The notes under the pieces were generated by a model, which saw nothing but the letters and a program-made list of their open reading frames with translations, had not been told where the DNA came from and did not search any database. This document shows, piece after piece, positions 59,083 through 64,000 of a DNA stretch of 64,000 bases. The stretch covers positions 62,001 through 126,000 of the forward strand of contig NZ_FO082820.1 in NCBI RefSeq assembly GCF_000967425.1, given 5' to 3'. The position numbers were made by a program, and so were the translations under genes. The stretch's first letter is position 1; every line of letters starts with the position of its first letter. The stretch is from Pseudorhizobium banfieldiae (lineage in GTDB: Bacteria; Pseudomonadota; Alphaproteobacteria; Rhizobiales; Rhizobiaceae).

Positions 59083-61296
59083 ATGACCTACACCAACTTC
59101 ACCGTCGAAACCGACGCAGACGGCATCGCCCTCGTCACCTGGGACATGCCGGAAAAATCCATGAACGTCTTCACCGTCGAGGTGATGGACGAGATCGAGA
59201 AGATCATCGACGCGACCGTCGCCGACGAGGCCGTCAAGGGCGTGGTCTTCACCTCCGGCAAGTCCTCCTTCTCCGGCGGCGCCGATCTCACCATGATCAA
59301 GTCGATGTTCTCCATGCTCGCCGAGGAGAAGGCGAAGGATCCGCAGTCGGCCGTCCAGAAGCTCTTTGATGCCGCCGGCCGCATGTCCTGGCTGTGGCGC
59401 AAGATCGAGACCAATGGCAAGCCCTGGGTCTCCGCCATCAACGGCACCTGCATGGGCGGCGCCTTTGAGCTGTCGCTCGCCTGCCACGGCCGCGTCGCCG
59501 CCAATTCCAAGGCGGTCAAGATCGCGCTTCCCGAGGTCAAGGTCGGCATCTTCCCGGGCGCCGGCGGTACCCAGCGCGTGCCGCGCCTGGCGAACGCCCA
59601 GGACGCCCTGCAGATGATGACGACCGGCCAGTCGCTCACCTCCCAGCGCGCCAAGGCCATGGGCCTCGTCCACCAGGTCGTCGAGCCGGATCAGTTGATC
59701 CCGGCGGCCAAGCAGATGATCAAGGATGGCCTGAAGCCCGTCGCCCCCTGGGACGAGAAGGGCTTCAGGGTTCCGGGCGGCGGCGTCTGGACGCCGGCAG
59801 CCGCCCAGCTCTTCCCGGCAGCACCCGCCATCCTGCGCCGCGAGACCGCCGGCAATTATCCGGGCGCGCTCGCCATCCTGAAATGCGTCTACGAGGGCCT
59901 GCAACTGCCCTTCGATACCGCCTTGAAGGTCGAGCAGCGTTATTTCACACAGATCCTGCAGACCACCGAGGCCTTCTCGATGATCCGCTCGCTCTTCGTC
60001 TCCATGCAGGAGCTCGGAAAGGGTGCCCGCCGCCCGGCCGGAGTCCCGAAGACGGACATCAGGAAGGTCGGCGTCGTCGGCGCAGGCTTCATGGGCGCCT
60101 CCATCGCCTATGTCACGGCCGCCGCCGGCATCCCCGTTGTCCTGATCGACCGCGACCAGGAGGCCGCCGACAAGGGCAAGGCGCATTCCGAGAAGCTGGT
60201 CTCCGACCAGGTCGGCAAGGGCCGCATGACGAAGGAAGACGGCGAGAAGCTGCTTTCCCTCGTCACCCCGACCCCGGACTATTCCACGCTCTCCGATGTC
60301 GACCTCGTGGTCGAGGCCGTCTTCGAGGACCGCGCCGTCAAGAAGGCCGTCATCGAGCAGGTGGAAGCCGTCATCCCGGAAACCGCGATCTTCGCCTCCA
60401 ACACCTCGACCCTGCCGATCACCGGCCTGGCCGAGAATTCCAGGCGCCCGGAGCAGTTCATCGGCGTCCACTTCTTCTCGCCGGTGGAAAAGATGATGCT
60501 GACCGAAGTCATCCTTGGCGAGAAGTCGGGCGACAAGGCGCTCGCCATGGCGCTGGATTTCGTCGGCAAGATCAAAAAGACGCCGATCGTCGTCAACGAT
60601 ACGCGCGGCTTCTTCGTCAACCGCTGCGTCTTCCGCTACATCAACGAGGCCTATGACATGCTGGCTGAGGGCGTGCCGGCGGTGATGATCGAGAATGCCG
60701 CCAAGATGGCCGGCATGCCGGTCGGCCCGCTGTCGCTCAACGACGAGGTGGCCGTCGATCTCTCCCAGAAGATCATGAAGGCCTCGATCGCCGATCTCGG
60801 CCCGAACTCGGTGAAGCCGGAGCACATGGCGCTCATCGACAAGATGGTCGACGTGCTCGACCGCCGCGGCCGCAAGAACGGCCAGGGCTTCTATGACTAT
60901 CCACCAAAGCCTGCCAAGAAGTCGCTCTGGCCGGGCCTGAAGGACCTCTACCCGCAGAAGCCGGCCTCGGAGGTCGACGTCAACGTCCTGAAGCAGCGCT
61001 TCCTGGTCACGATCGCGCTCGAAGCCGCCCGCACGGTGGAAGAAGGCATCGTCACGGACCCGCGCGAAGCCGACGTCGGCTCCATCCTCGGCTTCGGCTT
61101 CGCCCCCTATACCGGCGGCACGCTCTCCTACATCGACGGCATGGGCGTAAAGATCTTCGTGGACCTGGCCGAGAAACTGGCCGCCCACTACGGCGACCAC
61201 TTCAAGCCGACGCCGCTCTTGAAGGAGATGGCCGCCAACGGCGAGACCTTCTACGGCCGGTTCGACCCCTATGGTGACGTGGAGAAGGCGGCTTAG
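59083..61296 (+). CDS. fadJ: Enoyl-CoA hydratase/3-hydroxyacyl-CoA dehydrogenase (FadB/FadJ type)
   Basis: This 737-residue bifunctional enzyme catalyses the two central beta-oxidation steps. The N-terminal crotonase domain (about 1-300) has [20 protein letters not shown] and [17 protein letters not shown] with the two catalytic Glu positions. The NAD-binding dehydrogenase domain starts near residue 327 ([20 protein letters not shown]), with [16 protein letters not shown] and the active-site His. Two C-terminal dehydrogenase domains follow ([39 protein letters not shown]). GGAGGAG precedes the ATG, 20 bp after the thiolase gene. The stop codon lies in the loop of the operon terminator. Confidence 0.95.
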
Positions 61297-61317: not shown

Positions 61318-62241
61318 CTAGTCATCGGTTGAAGCAGGTCTCATCAGCAAGTGAGACTCTAGAAGAAAGCCAAGCATTTCCGATATCAAGACCGAGAATC
61401 GCTCAATCGCTATGTGGTTTGATAACTCGGGATTCGTCAACAGGGGCCTCCAGCGGCCATTAGCTTTCCTTGGTAATGGGCCCAGCGCAAACCACAGCCA
61501 GAAAAGGTGTATCAGGATGCCTCTGAACGTCCCGGCAGAAGAAGCCAAGGGGTTGGGGAATATTGGGTAGCTATCGTACCCATCTTCTTCGATACCGAAT
61601 GCTGCCGCGAACCCTGCAGTGATTGTCGGATGGAGAAGCATAGATCCGGCGAGCTCGGCATCCTCACGGAGAAAATCGACCACTTGGCTGCCCGGTGCCT
61701 CGATAACCGACGACACGAAGTCCGATACGCGTCTCTTTATCTTGTTCTTGCTGACATGTCGGTGCCAAAACTGATTGGCCTCATCAGGTTCAACCGCTGC
61801 TACGAACTGAGCGGTTAATTGCTCGTCATGGATGCAGCAGATCAGCACATCCACGTGCTCCAGATATGCTCGTGTTAATGCTCTAGCCTGCAGATCAAAC
61901 CCTGCTTCTACCAGTTCGATAATTGCCCACAAGTCGTTGGCCAGCCGCGACAAGAAAGAAATTGCCGCAAGCTTCTCGGTGCTTGGCTCAACCTCTTCTC
62001 CGGTTGCGGGGAGATCTTGCACGAGGGCGACTGCCAACAGTGAGAGCCACGTAGCTGCAATGTTCGTACATCGATGGAGGACGTAGAACTCCGGATCGGT
62101 GTCGAGAATATGCTGAAGTTTCTTCCGCCGGCGATCTTGATCTTGCGCGTCGAGAGTTTCTGTATCGTCAGATGTCGACACGAAGCTTCGATATTGTTTC
62201 TCGATGGTGGAGTCGAACAGGTGCCTGATGTCGCGTTTCAT
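61318..62241 (-). CDS. Hypothetical protein of atypical composition (DUF5677-like)
   Basis: This 307-residue soluble protein is mostly helical. The region ISFLSRLANDLWAIIELVEA, then GFDLQARALTRAYLEHVDVL, resembles DUF5677-type proteins, which share a buried helical core with Arg and Glu; this is a weak assignment. No signal peptide is visible. The gene is clearly AT-richer than its neighbours and uses different codons (many ATT, TTG, CAA), so it is probably horizontally acquired. It sits between the fad operon terminator and the REP/GIY-YIG repeat region. Such proteins are sometimes found in defence or mobile islands, but nothing here proves a role. Confidence 0.7.
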   Translation of the reverse strand: MKRDIRHLFDSTIEKQYRSFVSTSDDTETLDAQDQDRRRKKLQHILDTDPEFYVLHRCTNIAATWLSLLAVALVQDLPATGEEVEPSTEKLAAISFLSRLANDLWAIIELVEAGFDLQARALTRAYLEHVDVLICCIHDEQLTAQFVAAVEPDEANQFWHRHVSKNKIKRRVSDFVSSVIEAPGSQVVDFLREDAELAGSMLLHPTITAGFAAAFGIEEDGYDSYPIFPNPLASSAGTFRGILIHLFWLWFALGPLPRKANGRWRPLLTNPELSNHIAIERFSVLISEMLGFLLESHLLMRPASTDD

Positions 62242-62251
62242 ACATGAACGT

Positions 62252-62292
62252 TCTTGGGTTTGGATCCTCGGGTCAAGCCCAAGGATGACGAA
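62252..62292 (+). repeat. REP-type palindromic element, copy A (forward)
   Basis: A 41-bp element with inner stem ATCCTCGGG, loop TCAAG and a right arm that reads CCCAAGGAT here, one change from CCCGAGGAT. It differs from the other copies at 2 of 41 positions. It begins 10 bp from the start codon of the AT-rich hypothetical gene. Confidence 0.9.
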
Positions 62293-62475
62293 GGAGAATA
62301 GGGACGCGCGGTGCCATACGGGAAGTCGGTGCTGGTGGTCCTGGTTGCTTCAACTTGATGACAATGCGGTTTAGCAAAGTCCACTTTCTACGAAGGCCAC
62401 CGGCAAGTGAAATCCCATCTGCTGCCATAGCCTTGCTCTGGCCTCTCTTGAGGCGCCCTTGGCACCTCCCTCTCT

Positions 62476-62516
62476 TTCGTCATCCTCGGGCTTGACCCGA
62501 GGATCCAAACCCAAGC
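62476..62516 (-). repeat. REP-type palindromic element, copy B (reverse)
   Basis: Its reverse complement is identical over 41 bp to copy C. It ends 2 bp from the stop codon of the GIY-YIG gene. Beyond the 41 bp it shares another 40 bp or so of similarity with the flank of copy D (AGAGAGG..., CAAGAGAGG, GGAGCAA-like blocks). Confidence 0.95.
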
Positions 62517-62518
62517 CC

Positions 62519-62803
62519 TCACCACAGCTCCAGATACAAATCCCGCCAGTCCGGGTTCCGCTCTTCGATCAGCGCGATCTTCCACTTGCGGTACCACTGC
62601 TTCATGGTCTTTTCCCGCTGGATGGCGTCGCGGACGTCCCAGTGCTCCTCATACCAGACGAGCTGTGTCAGCCCGTATCTGGAGGTGAAGCCGGGTGTCA
62701 GTCCTTCGCGATGCTCGTAGATGCGGCGTGCGAGATCGGACGTCACGCCGATGTAGAGCGTCCCGTGCTTGTGGTTGGTGACGATGTAGACATATCCCGC
62801 CAT
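62519..62803 (-). CDS. GIY-YIG family minimal endonuclease
   Basis: This 94-residue protein consists of little more than the GIY-YIG nuclease domain: GYVYIVTNHKHGTLYIGVTS is the signature, followed by DLARRIYEHREG with the catalytic Arg, and the metal-binding Glu probably in the AIQREKTMKQW region. It is similar in size to YhbQ/UPF0213 proteins and has no extra DNA-binding domain. The ATG at 62803 lacks a strong Shine-Dalgarno; an upstream in-frame TTG would lie inside repeat copy C. The gene is bounded on both sides by perfect inverted 41-bp REP-like copies, its stop only 2 bp from copy B. Nuclease activity is inferred from family. Confidence 0.9.
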   Translation of the reverse strand: MAGYVYIVTNHKHGTLYIGVTSDLARRIYEHREGLTPGFTSRYGLTQLVWYEEHWDVRDAIQREKTMKQWYRKWKIALIEERNPDWRDLYLELW

Positions 62804-62847
62804 GCGTGCAGGATGGTGGGGCCGGTACGTGTTCGTCAAGCGGGCAT

Positions 62848-62888
62848 GCTTGGGTTTGGATCCTCGGGTCAAGCCCGAGGATGACGAA
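62848..62888 (+). repeat. REP-type palindromic element, copy C (forward)
   Basis: A 41-bp element with stem ATCCTCGGG, loop TCAAG, stem CCCGAGGAT, preceded by GCTTGGGTTTGG and followed by GACGAA. It is identical to the reverse complement of copy B. The GIY-YIG coding start is 45 bp away, on the other strand. Confidence 0.95.
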
Positions 62889-63179
62889 TGGGGAGGGGGA
62901 TGCCCGGTGCCACAAGAGAAGTTTGCGGTGGAGGCGCGCGATCACCAACGTCTCACCTGAGGAGTCCGCAACGAGTCGGGCCTCGGGTCTTTCGACCGGC
63001 CGTCTTCTCCCATCAGCACCCTCTCCTTCCTGTTCGCGTTAGCAACGCGCGGATCAGCCCAATTCCCTTCCGGAGTATCTGGCCGACAAACACGAGGCCA
63101 TGCCTCAGACACCTTACGCTACCCGTTCTGCGACCTTTTGCTCCGCCCTCTCTTGGGGCACCCATGGCACCCCCTCTCT
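62889..63179. other. Interior of the second REP-bounded unit, no gene seen
   Basis: I see no convincing gene here. The left edge (CGGTGCCA...GAAGT...GGTGG) resembles the sequence after copy A, and the right edge (TTTTGCTCCGCCCTCTCTTG) resembles that before copy B. So 62848-63220 is a diverged, longer direct copy of the unit at 62252-62516. Confidence 0.6.
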
Positions 63180-63220
63180 TTCGTCATCCTCGGGCTTGAC
63201 CCGAGGATCCAAACACAAGC
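63180..63220 (-). repeat. REP-type palindromic element, copy D (reverse)
   Basis: It differs from copy B at one of 41 positions (AAACACAAGC in place of AAACCCAAGC). With copy C it bounds the second composite unit and lies 70 bp upstream of the YedK-type gene. Confidence 0.92.
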
Positions 63221-63289: not shown

Positions 63290-63928
63290 ATGTGCAACGA
63301 CTACGAACAACACATCCGCTATGCCGAATACCTCCGCGCGCTGGAGGAGCAAGGCCTTGCCGCCCCGCCGCATCAGAGCGAGGCGGATCTCCCCCGGGCG
63401 GATGACGTGCGGATCGGCGATCTCGCCCCGGTGATGCGGGCGGAAGGCGAGGGCGTAGTGGCGCTGTCGTCCATGCGCTTCGGCTTCCCGCCGCCAGCTT
63501 CAGCCAAAGGGGGCAAGAAGGGCGGGCCGGTGTTCAACTTCCGCTCGGAAGGCCGAAGCTTTGCGCAAAGCCGCCGCTGCCTCATCCCGGCCTCGGCCTT
63601 CTTCGAGTTCACCGGCACGAAATACCCCAAGGCCAAGCACCGCTTCACGCTGAAGGACGCGCCCTTCCTTTGCATCGCCGGGCTTTGGCGGGATGTGGGG
63701 CGCGAGGCAGCAGGCGAGGGGGAGAAGAGCAACCAGCCCCCCGCCTTCACCATGCTCACCACCGCCCCCGGCCCCGACGTCGCCCCCATCCACGACCGCC
63801 AGGTCGTGGTGCTGCGGCCCGAGGACTGGCGCCACTGGCTCCATCTCACCAAACCCGAAGCCGACCTCCTCCGCCCCTTGCCGGCGGGGTCGCTCGCCGT
63901 GGAAGAGGTGCGGTCGGGGAGTGACTGA
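63290..63928 (+). CDS. SOS response-associated peptidase (YedK/HMCES family)
   Basis: This 212-residue SRAP-domain protein crosslinks to abasic sites in single-stranded DNA. Catalytic residues are all present: Cys2 (MCNDYEQH), Asn83 (FNFRSEG), Glu106 (ASAFFEF) and His168 (APIHDRQVVVL), close to E. coli YedK Cys2, Asn75, Glu105, His160. Because Cys2 must be the second residue, the start at 63290 is fixed even though no Shine-Dalgarno is present and the upstream is C-rich. MCND replaces the more usual MCGR. It lies just beyond REP copy D and before a different palindromic repeat. Confidence 0.92.
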   Translation: MCNDYEQHIRYAEYLRALEEQGLAAPPHQSEADLPRADDVRIGDLAPVMRAEGEGVVALSSMRFGFPPPASAKGGKKGGPVFNFRSEGRSFAQSRRCLIPASAFFEFTGTKYPKAKHRFTLKDAPFLCIAGLWRDVGREAAGEGEKSNQPPAFTMLTTAPGPDVAPIHDRQVVVLRPEDWRHWLHLTKPEADLLRPLPAGSLAVEEVRSGSD

Positions 63929-63948
63929 GGTAGTGCCTCTCCTCCGTC

Positions 63949-63991
63949 ATTCCTGTGCCCGGACTTGATCCGGGGATCGGTCACAGGAATC
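63949..63991. repeat. Second-family palindromic repeat after the YedK-type gene
   Basis: Nested inverted repeats: outer ATTCCTGTG/CACAGGAAT and inner CCCGGA, CTTGA, TCCGGG. The inner CTTGA loop plan parallels the REP copies A-D but the sequence differs. The window ends shortly afterwards. Confidence 0.75.
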
Positions 63992-64000
63992 CAGCAGCGC

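Follow-up and report, generated by a model that had tools for sequence, protein, structure and literature searches.

Four REP-type palindromes surround a small GIY-YIG nuclease gene in Pseudorhizobium banfieldiae, and the locus raises the question of whether such a nuclease is the enzyme that spreads them. CGTC-tagged REPs, which are mostly alphaproteobacterial, have been described as dimer-forming palindromes with a CGTC, TGTC or CCTC head, an 8-9 bp stem beginning with AT, a 4-5 nt loop and a CCA tail (Di Nocera, De Gregorio and Rocco 2013, PMC3733652). According to that 2013 survey, no dedicated transposase was apparent, the repeats were unassociated with transposase genes, and the way in which they spread was left open (PMC3733652). 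The window analyzed here is a 64-kb stretch, C1:62001-126000 of the 4.58-Mb genome. We consider it probable (about 0.7) that the locus in it belongs to a widespread pair, a solitary GIY-YIG nuclease and its cognate CGTC REPs, which would spread by homing-like cutting of the REP hairpin followed by repair.

Four CGTC-tagged palindromes in the window

The positions of the features are collected in Table 1, in which REPs A to D are given as 30-bp CGTC...CCA units on the CGTC-bearing strand. The first-pass annotation had described four palindromes of alternating orientation within ~970 bp, of which B and C were identical, inverted and enclosed a 94-codon GIY-YIG gene, with the stop codon 2 bp from the 41-bp copy of B and the start codon ~45 bp from C. 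This geometry was borne out. The four 30-bp units spanned 951 bp with alternating orientation, and the 41-bp unit of B and C formed an exact inverted repeat within 52-nt arms that were 90% complementary. Over 30 bp, B, C and D were identical and A differed by one change. A-B and C-D had further been taken for diverged direct copies of one another. Their ends indeed matched (86 nt at 81%, 51 nt at 98% and 37 nt at 84%), but their middles were unlike, and the description is thus valid for the ends alone.

Table 1. Features of the REP-nuclease locus and its surroundings (window coordinates unless a contig is given).
Feature	Position	Strand	Remarks
fadB-like gene (presumed)	59083-61296	+	Left neighbor of the site
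307-codon ORF	61318-62241	-	Flanked by the fadB-like gene and REP A
Outer inverted arm including REP A	62253-62332	+	Inverted pair with 63140-63219; 80 nt, 76% complementary
REP A	62261-62290	-	Type I CGTC-REP; one stem mismatch
Cassette 1 (REP B - GIY-YIG - REP C)	62452-62888	.	Two-copy in the genome
REP B	62478-62507	+	3' of the nuclease gene; outward-facing CGTC head
Solitary GIY-YIG nuclease gene, 94 codons	62519-62803	-	PF01541, 61.8 bits
REP C	62857-62886	-	5' of the nuclease gene; outward-facing CGTC head
Outer inverted arm including REP D	63140-63219	-	Partner of 62253-62332
REP D	63182-63211	+	Aligns with the lone REP at the same site in relative G050
SRAP-family gene (PF02586)	63290-63928	+	Right neighbor defining the site
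Cassette 2	C1:126014-126449		Starts 14 bp past the window end; palindrome-bounded

The window REPs showed a CGTC head, a 9-bp stem (ATCCTCGGG/CCCGAGGAT) starting with AT, a 5-nt loop and a CCA tail, and they therefore agree in head, stem, loop and tail with the CGTC-tagged REPs as the survey defines them. As single-stranded DNA, the type I REP hairpin had a folding energy of -10.1 kcal/mol (z -4.2). The palindrome motif matched four times in the 64-kb window, always at the A-D locus, and had no match in 100 shuffles. At one mismatch or less, 10 copies were present in the genome and up to 42 in one relative. Six of the 10 copies surround two GIY-YIG genes because a second palindrome-bounded cassette lies just past the window end.

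The nuclease and its second copy

The GIY-YIG domain covers residues 3-76 of the 94-residue protein. The catalytic residues of GIY-YIG enzymes are Tyr, Tyr, Arg, Glu and Asn. R27, E64 and N83 were invariant in 116 aligned rows, with Y6 and Y17 at 99%, and the protein thus combines the domain and the catalytic residue set that define the nuclease superfamily. The fold was predicted with a pLDDT of 96.1, and the closest solved folds were those of Slx1, UPF0213, I-TevI and the UvrC N-domain, Slx1 being first by Z. The domain fills most of the chain and a separate DNA-recognition domain (NUMOD or similar) is absent; the NCBIfam intron-endonuclease model scored 21.3 bits, below its cut-off of 56.05. 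The homologous family comprised 5,491 proteins at E <= 1e-5, clustered at 90%, and the top named match among the best 120 of them came from Pseudorhizobium halotolerans (98%).

Cassettes 1 and 2 were 92.5% identical across 438 bp and bounded by palindromes. Between their genes, 16 of 21 differences fell at third positions, with a dN of 0.018, a dS of 0.337 and a dN/dS of about 0.05. The third-position bias and the low dN relative to dS indicate that both proteins are maintained; the two solitary nuclease copies of the genome are under purifying selection, with conserved catalytic residues. A third GIY-YIG domain, the only other in the genome, belongs to an open frame of 707 residues, most likely UvrC. 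The intergenic DNA of G000 and G053 could not be aligned throughout, and a clean gene-free counterpart of cassette 2 was not found in that comparison.

Association of nuclease genes with REPs in other genomes

The first-pass annotation expected the element to accompany GIY-YIG genes in related genomes. The genus search gave 47 GIY-YIG match rows in 34 of 57 genomes, and 42 loci were analyzed, five fragments of 21-37 residues being left out. A REP lay within 250 bp of the gene at 36 of the 42 loci, on both sides at 27 and with both heads outward at 22; the six negative loci include two detector misses that were not counted as positive, L034 (masked bases) and L039 (a long-loop type II REP). The ParE-toxin genes served as controls that are equally small and patchy, represented by the best match, out of many, from each of 30 genomes, and none of these 30 loci had a REP of the three types defined below within 250 bp. 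When 30 genus loci were judged only by the inverted-flank score, 15 were strong, two of the 30 (L036 and L041) being misplaced.

Beyond the genus, we analyzed 80 loci from named genomes. Most were alphaproteobacterial; the others came from beta- and gammaproteobacteria, along with a few from records that bear the label of other phyla. At 55 of 78 testable loci, the two 300-bp flanks shared inverted repeats above the 99% quantile obtained from 2,606 random positions within those loci, and a strong inverted flank was missing at the other 23. Within 250 bp of the gene, REPs reached densities of 2.78 and 2.47 per kb, compared with 0.5 per kb or less in the reported bins from 0.5 to 5 kb. The REPs were biased in orientation (40 versus 15 upstream, 29 versus 18 downstream). 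A strict detector, which missed the variants of Caulobacter and sphingomonads, found both nearest REPs facing outward at 23 of the 80 loci. These loci fell into 64 groups by genes common to both sides and into 38 by any common neighbor.

A phylum survey with a different query found a match in 188 of 398 genomes. We read 50 loci, the 30 best matches and 20 lower-ranked ones picked before reading; 36 had strong inverted flanks, as against none of 224 local control positions, and 14 did not. The nuclease gene thus lies beside or between palindrome copies far more often than controls do. The annotation had named two outcomes that would speak against a link, and neither occurred: with one control family and random positions as references, the element was not equally common beside all gene types, and homologues elsewhere did not lack it.

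Y1 (RAYT-type) transposases were absent from 55 of the 57 genus genomes, including the window genome (PF01797, E <= 0.001). No gene of the three clades described below was present in 24 of the 57, and 21 of these 24 still held REPs, up to 22 of one type. Separately, a GIY-YIG homologue of Neisseria (L202) was seen amid dRS3-like CGTC REPs.

Protein clades matched to REP types

Three REP types were distinguished in the genus: type I (CCTCGGG..TTGACCC..CCA), type II (CCTGTG..TTGTCACAGG; its flanks begin with CCTC or CGTC) and type III (CCTCGGG..TTGTCCC..CTA). The type was called as the nearest of the three motifs. All 36 REP-bearing genus loci carried the type of their own protein clade (14 of clade I, 13 of clade II and 9 of clade III), with one REP of L045 tying between types I and III and, at L040, L041 and L043 at least, an additional REP with a fourth sequence separating the type II REP from the gene. 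The clades were supported at 85/86 (I, not starred), 100/97 (II) and 100/99 (III) in a tree of 40 of the 42 proteins (L034 and L199 were omitted as short), in which, as the tool warned, clades II and III join by their long branches.

The matching also held within single genomes. Four genomes (G013, G025, G026 and G045) contained two or three clades, and all 11 of their genes adjoined their own type; random dealing of types within these four genomes would give this with a chance of 1 in 288 (6 x 12 x 2 x 2). Genome-wide REP counts tracked the cognate clade as well, with p values, uncorrected for kinship, of 0.0024 (I) and 7e-4 (III). For clade II the likewise uncorrected value was 7.9e-5 with sub-clade Ib and 0.0022 without it, Ib having been pooled with clade II after its REP type was seen; the later tree nests Ib in II. 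One non-cognate association appeared, between sub-clade Ib (n=3) and type I (p 0.035). When two flanking copies per gene were subtracted, the cognate excess weakened to p 0.025, 0.07 and 0.010, again uncorrected for kinship, and all non-cognate tests gave p >= 0.2. All nine clade III genes occupy one site, so this pairing may be one old, vertically inherited event. Within the genus, every protein clade was paired with a single REP type.

Occupied and gene-free sites

The window locus lies between the SRAP gene and a left neighbor that we take to be a fadB-like gene. We fetched 30 SRAP loci and scanned the 16 closest with the three REP motifs; just ~300 bp beside SRAP was covered in G011 and G051. 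The identity of the fadB side was established in G000, G053, G050, G042 and G004, and partly in G044; in G050, G042 and G004, the DNA adjoining the site on that side matched. The 307-codon ORF has no Pfam match; its DNA was matched in G053, and no homologous DNA was present at the site in G050.

At this site, the gene of G000 and G053 belonged to clade I and had type I REPs, and that of G004 belonged to clade II and had type II REPs; each flank in G004 was a heterodimer in which the partner REP differs in sequence. Clade and REP type therefore switch together at one intergenic site. A truncated clade I gene and a REP were found in G044; G011 and, in degenerate form, G019 had a REP pair without a gene. 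In G050, the gene was absent and a single type I REP aligned with REP D. Compared with the REP-flanked genes of G000, G053 and G004, this lone REP is a candidate gene-free target. The remaining nine of the 16 loci had neither gene nor REP.

The sufB-sufC spacer was compared across 57 genomes. Nine had a REP-gene-REP arrangement, three had gene-less REP pairs, and G015 retained a deletion remnant of the nuclease gene between REPs. In G007 and G020, a REP pair replaced the single REP upstream of the gene. By eye, no REP pair was seen in the other 44 spacers (that of G047 has a degenerate palindrome and that of G027 is partly masked), and no REP was seen beside the other genes that occupy these spacers.

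On plasmids, next to the same gene, L200 carried one type II REPIN versus two in L230 and L231, with no clean junction. The gene was present in all eight plasmids of one group that held most of the query; of six longer plasmids in this group, the two examined had one extra REPIN each, with unclean junctions. For another plasmid query, a clean gene-free site was not found among the best 40 of 131 matches.

As a separate observation, the sufB-sufC spacers of the 57 relatives (L128-L157, L203-L229) held varied small accessory genes, named by eye as nucleotidyltransferase-like/partner pairs, GIY-YIG cassettes and other small ORFs.

Gene-less REP dimers

Among the matches listed, we picked 56 gene-less dimers (19 + 17 + 20) for their outward-facing shape; each consists of two inverted REPs with a short linker, which is the layout of a REPIN. 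For type II, we assembled the arms of 19 gene-less dimers and of 5 cassettes from 5 of the 13 type II gene loci. These 38 dimer arms and 9 cassette arms carried a second hairpin at a fixed offset. In 32 distinct sequences of this hairpin, a GTCN loop occurred in 31 and stem pairs 1-7 were kept in 29-31, compared with averages of 11-25 in shuffles. Several pair types were found at most stem positions; pair 3 was nearly constant and did not rise above every shuffle. The variation of stem sequence with retention of the fold, in gene-bearing and gene-less arms, supports common descent and selection on structure. The gene-less type II dimers thus share the arm anatomy of the gene-bearing cassettes. 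The linkers of types I and III had no common second-hairpin arm by eye, and the double-hairpin result therefore rests on type II. Target-site duplications at the 56 dimers showed no excess over shuffles, and the flanks were weakly pyrimidine-rich.

Two further repeats were noted. A long-loop type II REP with a REP-like hairpin nested in its loop occurs at 63945-63995 in the window and also at L039, L041, L044 and L084. In the window genome, a 780-bp repeat, 88% identical between its copies at 1.47 Mb (L016 4797-5570) and 4.16 Mb (L017 4249-5020), contains type I REP pairs without a gene, together with unexplained sequence; Rfam gave no match above the gathering score in L015-L017, which include this repeat.

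Proposed mechanism and alternatives

The enzyme-palindrome pairing with matching types recurs in many bacteria, which makes the nuclease a good candidate for spreading these orphan repeats. In the mechanism we propose, the nuclease would recognize the hairpin or cruciform form of its own REP and would nick or cut it, and the break would be repaired from another REP-bearing copy. Through such repair, the DNA bounded by the REPs, whether it includes the gene or not, would be copied into further REP sites in a homing-like gene conversion, and the REPs would thereby persist. On this view, the REPINs would stand to the gene-bearing cassette as non-autonomous relatives, just as REPINs do to RAYTs. 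The gene-free lone REP of G050, the lack of target duplication, the deletion remnant and the kinship to homing and branch-cutting nucleases indirectly favor homing-like repair over classical transposition. The REPs in 21 of 24 gene-less genomes fit later gene loss or independent spread of REPs.

A wider proposal, which we put forward tentatively and at somewhat less than even odds, is that the lone 90-residue GIY-YIG nuclease is the sole protein of an unrecognized class of mobile element. It would propagate CGTC-REP-bounded DNA and REPINs through structure-specific cutting of cognate hairpins and host repair. That would make it the engine that CGTC REPs, among them Neisseria dRS3 and Rickettsia RPE-4/RPE-6, have seemed to lack, with an origin independent of RAYTs. 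If true, REP-enzyme partnerships evolved at least twice, with unrelated chemistries, and the large "GIY-YIG nuclease family protein" group would gain a role; if mobility by GIY-YIG cutting proves true, the element may represent a new class. A nuclease with clade-matched palindromes makes the spread of CGTC REPs a simple bench question.

The repeats might instead move by RAYT-like transposition, with the nuclease releasing a REP-bounded single strand at replication and pasting it elsewhere without homologous repair, but we consider this unlikely. The stability of the single-stranded REP hairpins would suit it, as would the discrete, head-outward REPINs with diverse flanks (in dimers chosen for shape) and the difference in REPIN number between plasmid L200 and L230/L231. 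However, no target duplication was detected, the flanks are just weakly pyrimidine-rich, and the lone REP at the gene-free site of G050 better fits copying into an existing REP. In addition, GIY-YIG enzymes are hydrolytic nucleases for which we know of no covalent rejoining step, which also counts against transposition.

It is quite unlikely that the gene is a passenger, caught by REP recombination or terminator use among REPs that spread otherwise, with a nuclease role elsewhere in repair or anti-phage cutting. The persistence of REPs in gene-less genomes and the occupation of the same suf site by other genes would be expected of a passenger. However, the REP-free surroundings of the ParE genes and of the other suf-spacer genes argue against it, and clade-type matching within one genome and at one site would be unexpected. 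Moreover, the PADLOC matches of the nuclease were weak (E 0.018 and 0.027). A mere accumulation of REPs and nuclease genes in permissive intergenic DNA is very improbable, because, although the suf and SRAP sites take varied inserts, REP density drops within about 500 bp of the gene, orientation is biased, and the ParE and local controls, albeit unmatched for intergenic position, were all negative.

Comparison with known systems

The homing-like pair that we favor has a parallel in the REP/REPIN-RAYT systems, in which a REP-flanked gene encodes TnpA-REP, a Y1 HUH transposase, the REP type tracks the protein and gene-less dimers lie elsewhere. The first-pass annotation had drawn this parallel, with a GIY-YIG enzyme in the transposase's place, and it is supported by the clade-type matching, the same-site switch and the dimers that share cassette arms. 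The window system resembles REP/RAYT in its REP-flanked gene, type-tracking protein and gene-less dimers. However, RAYT/REPtron elements have a GTAG tag and a Y1 transposase, whereas the window system has a CGTC tag and a PF01541 GIY-YIG nuclease. MITEs and insertion sequences likewise have terminal inverted repeats and short gene-less forms; unlike them, the window system has no Y1 transposase in its genome and no target-site duplication.

The repeat class is already known. In the published survey, CGTC REPs are apparently without a dedicated transposase, whereas a GIY-YIG partner is proposed here. No paper linking GIY-YIG genes to REPs, and hence no such partner in print, was found among the matches listed, in a search with most subscription journals and all preprints outside its coverage.

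The free-standing GIY-YIG homing endonucleases (I-TevI relatives) have the same catalytic fold and residues, and spread by cutting and repair is proposed for both. Unlike them, the window protein has no room for a DNA-binding domain in its 94 residues, and its gene is palindrome-bounded. The literature search found no REP link for UPF0213 or Slx1. The nearest solved structures to the window protein are these small UPF0213 GIY-YIG proteins (1zg2 and 1ywl) and Slx1. The Slx1 chains are larger than the window protein (249-298 residues) and were solved with Slx4, and their structure entries are titled as branched-DNA processing.
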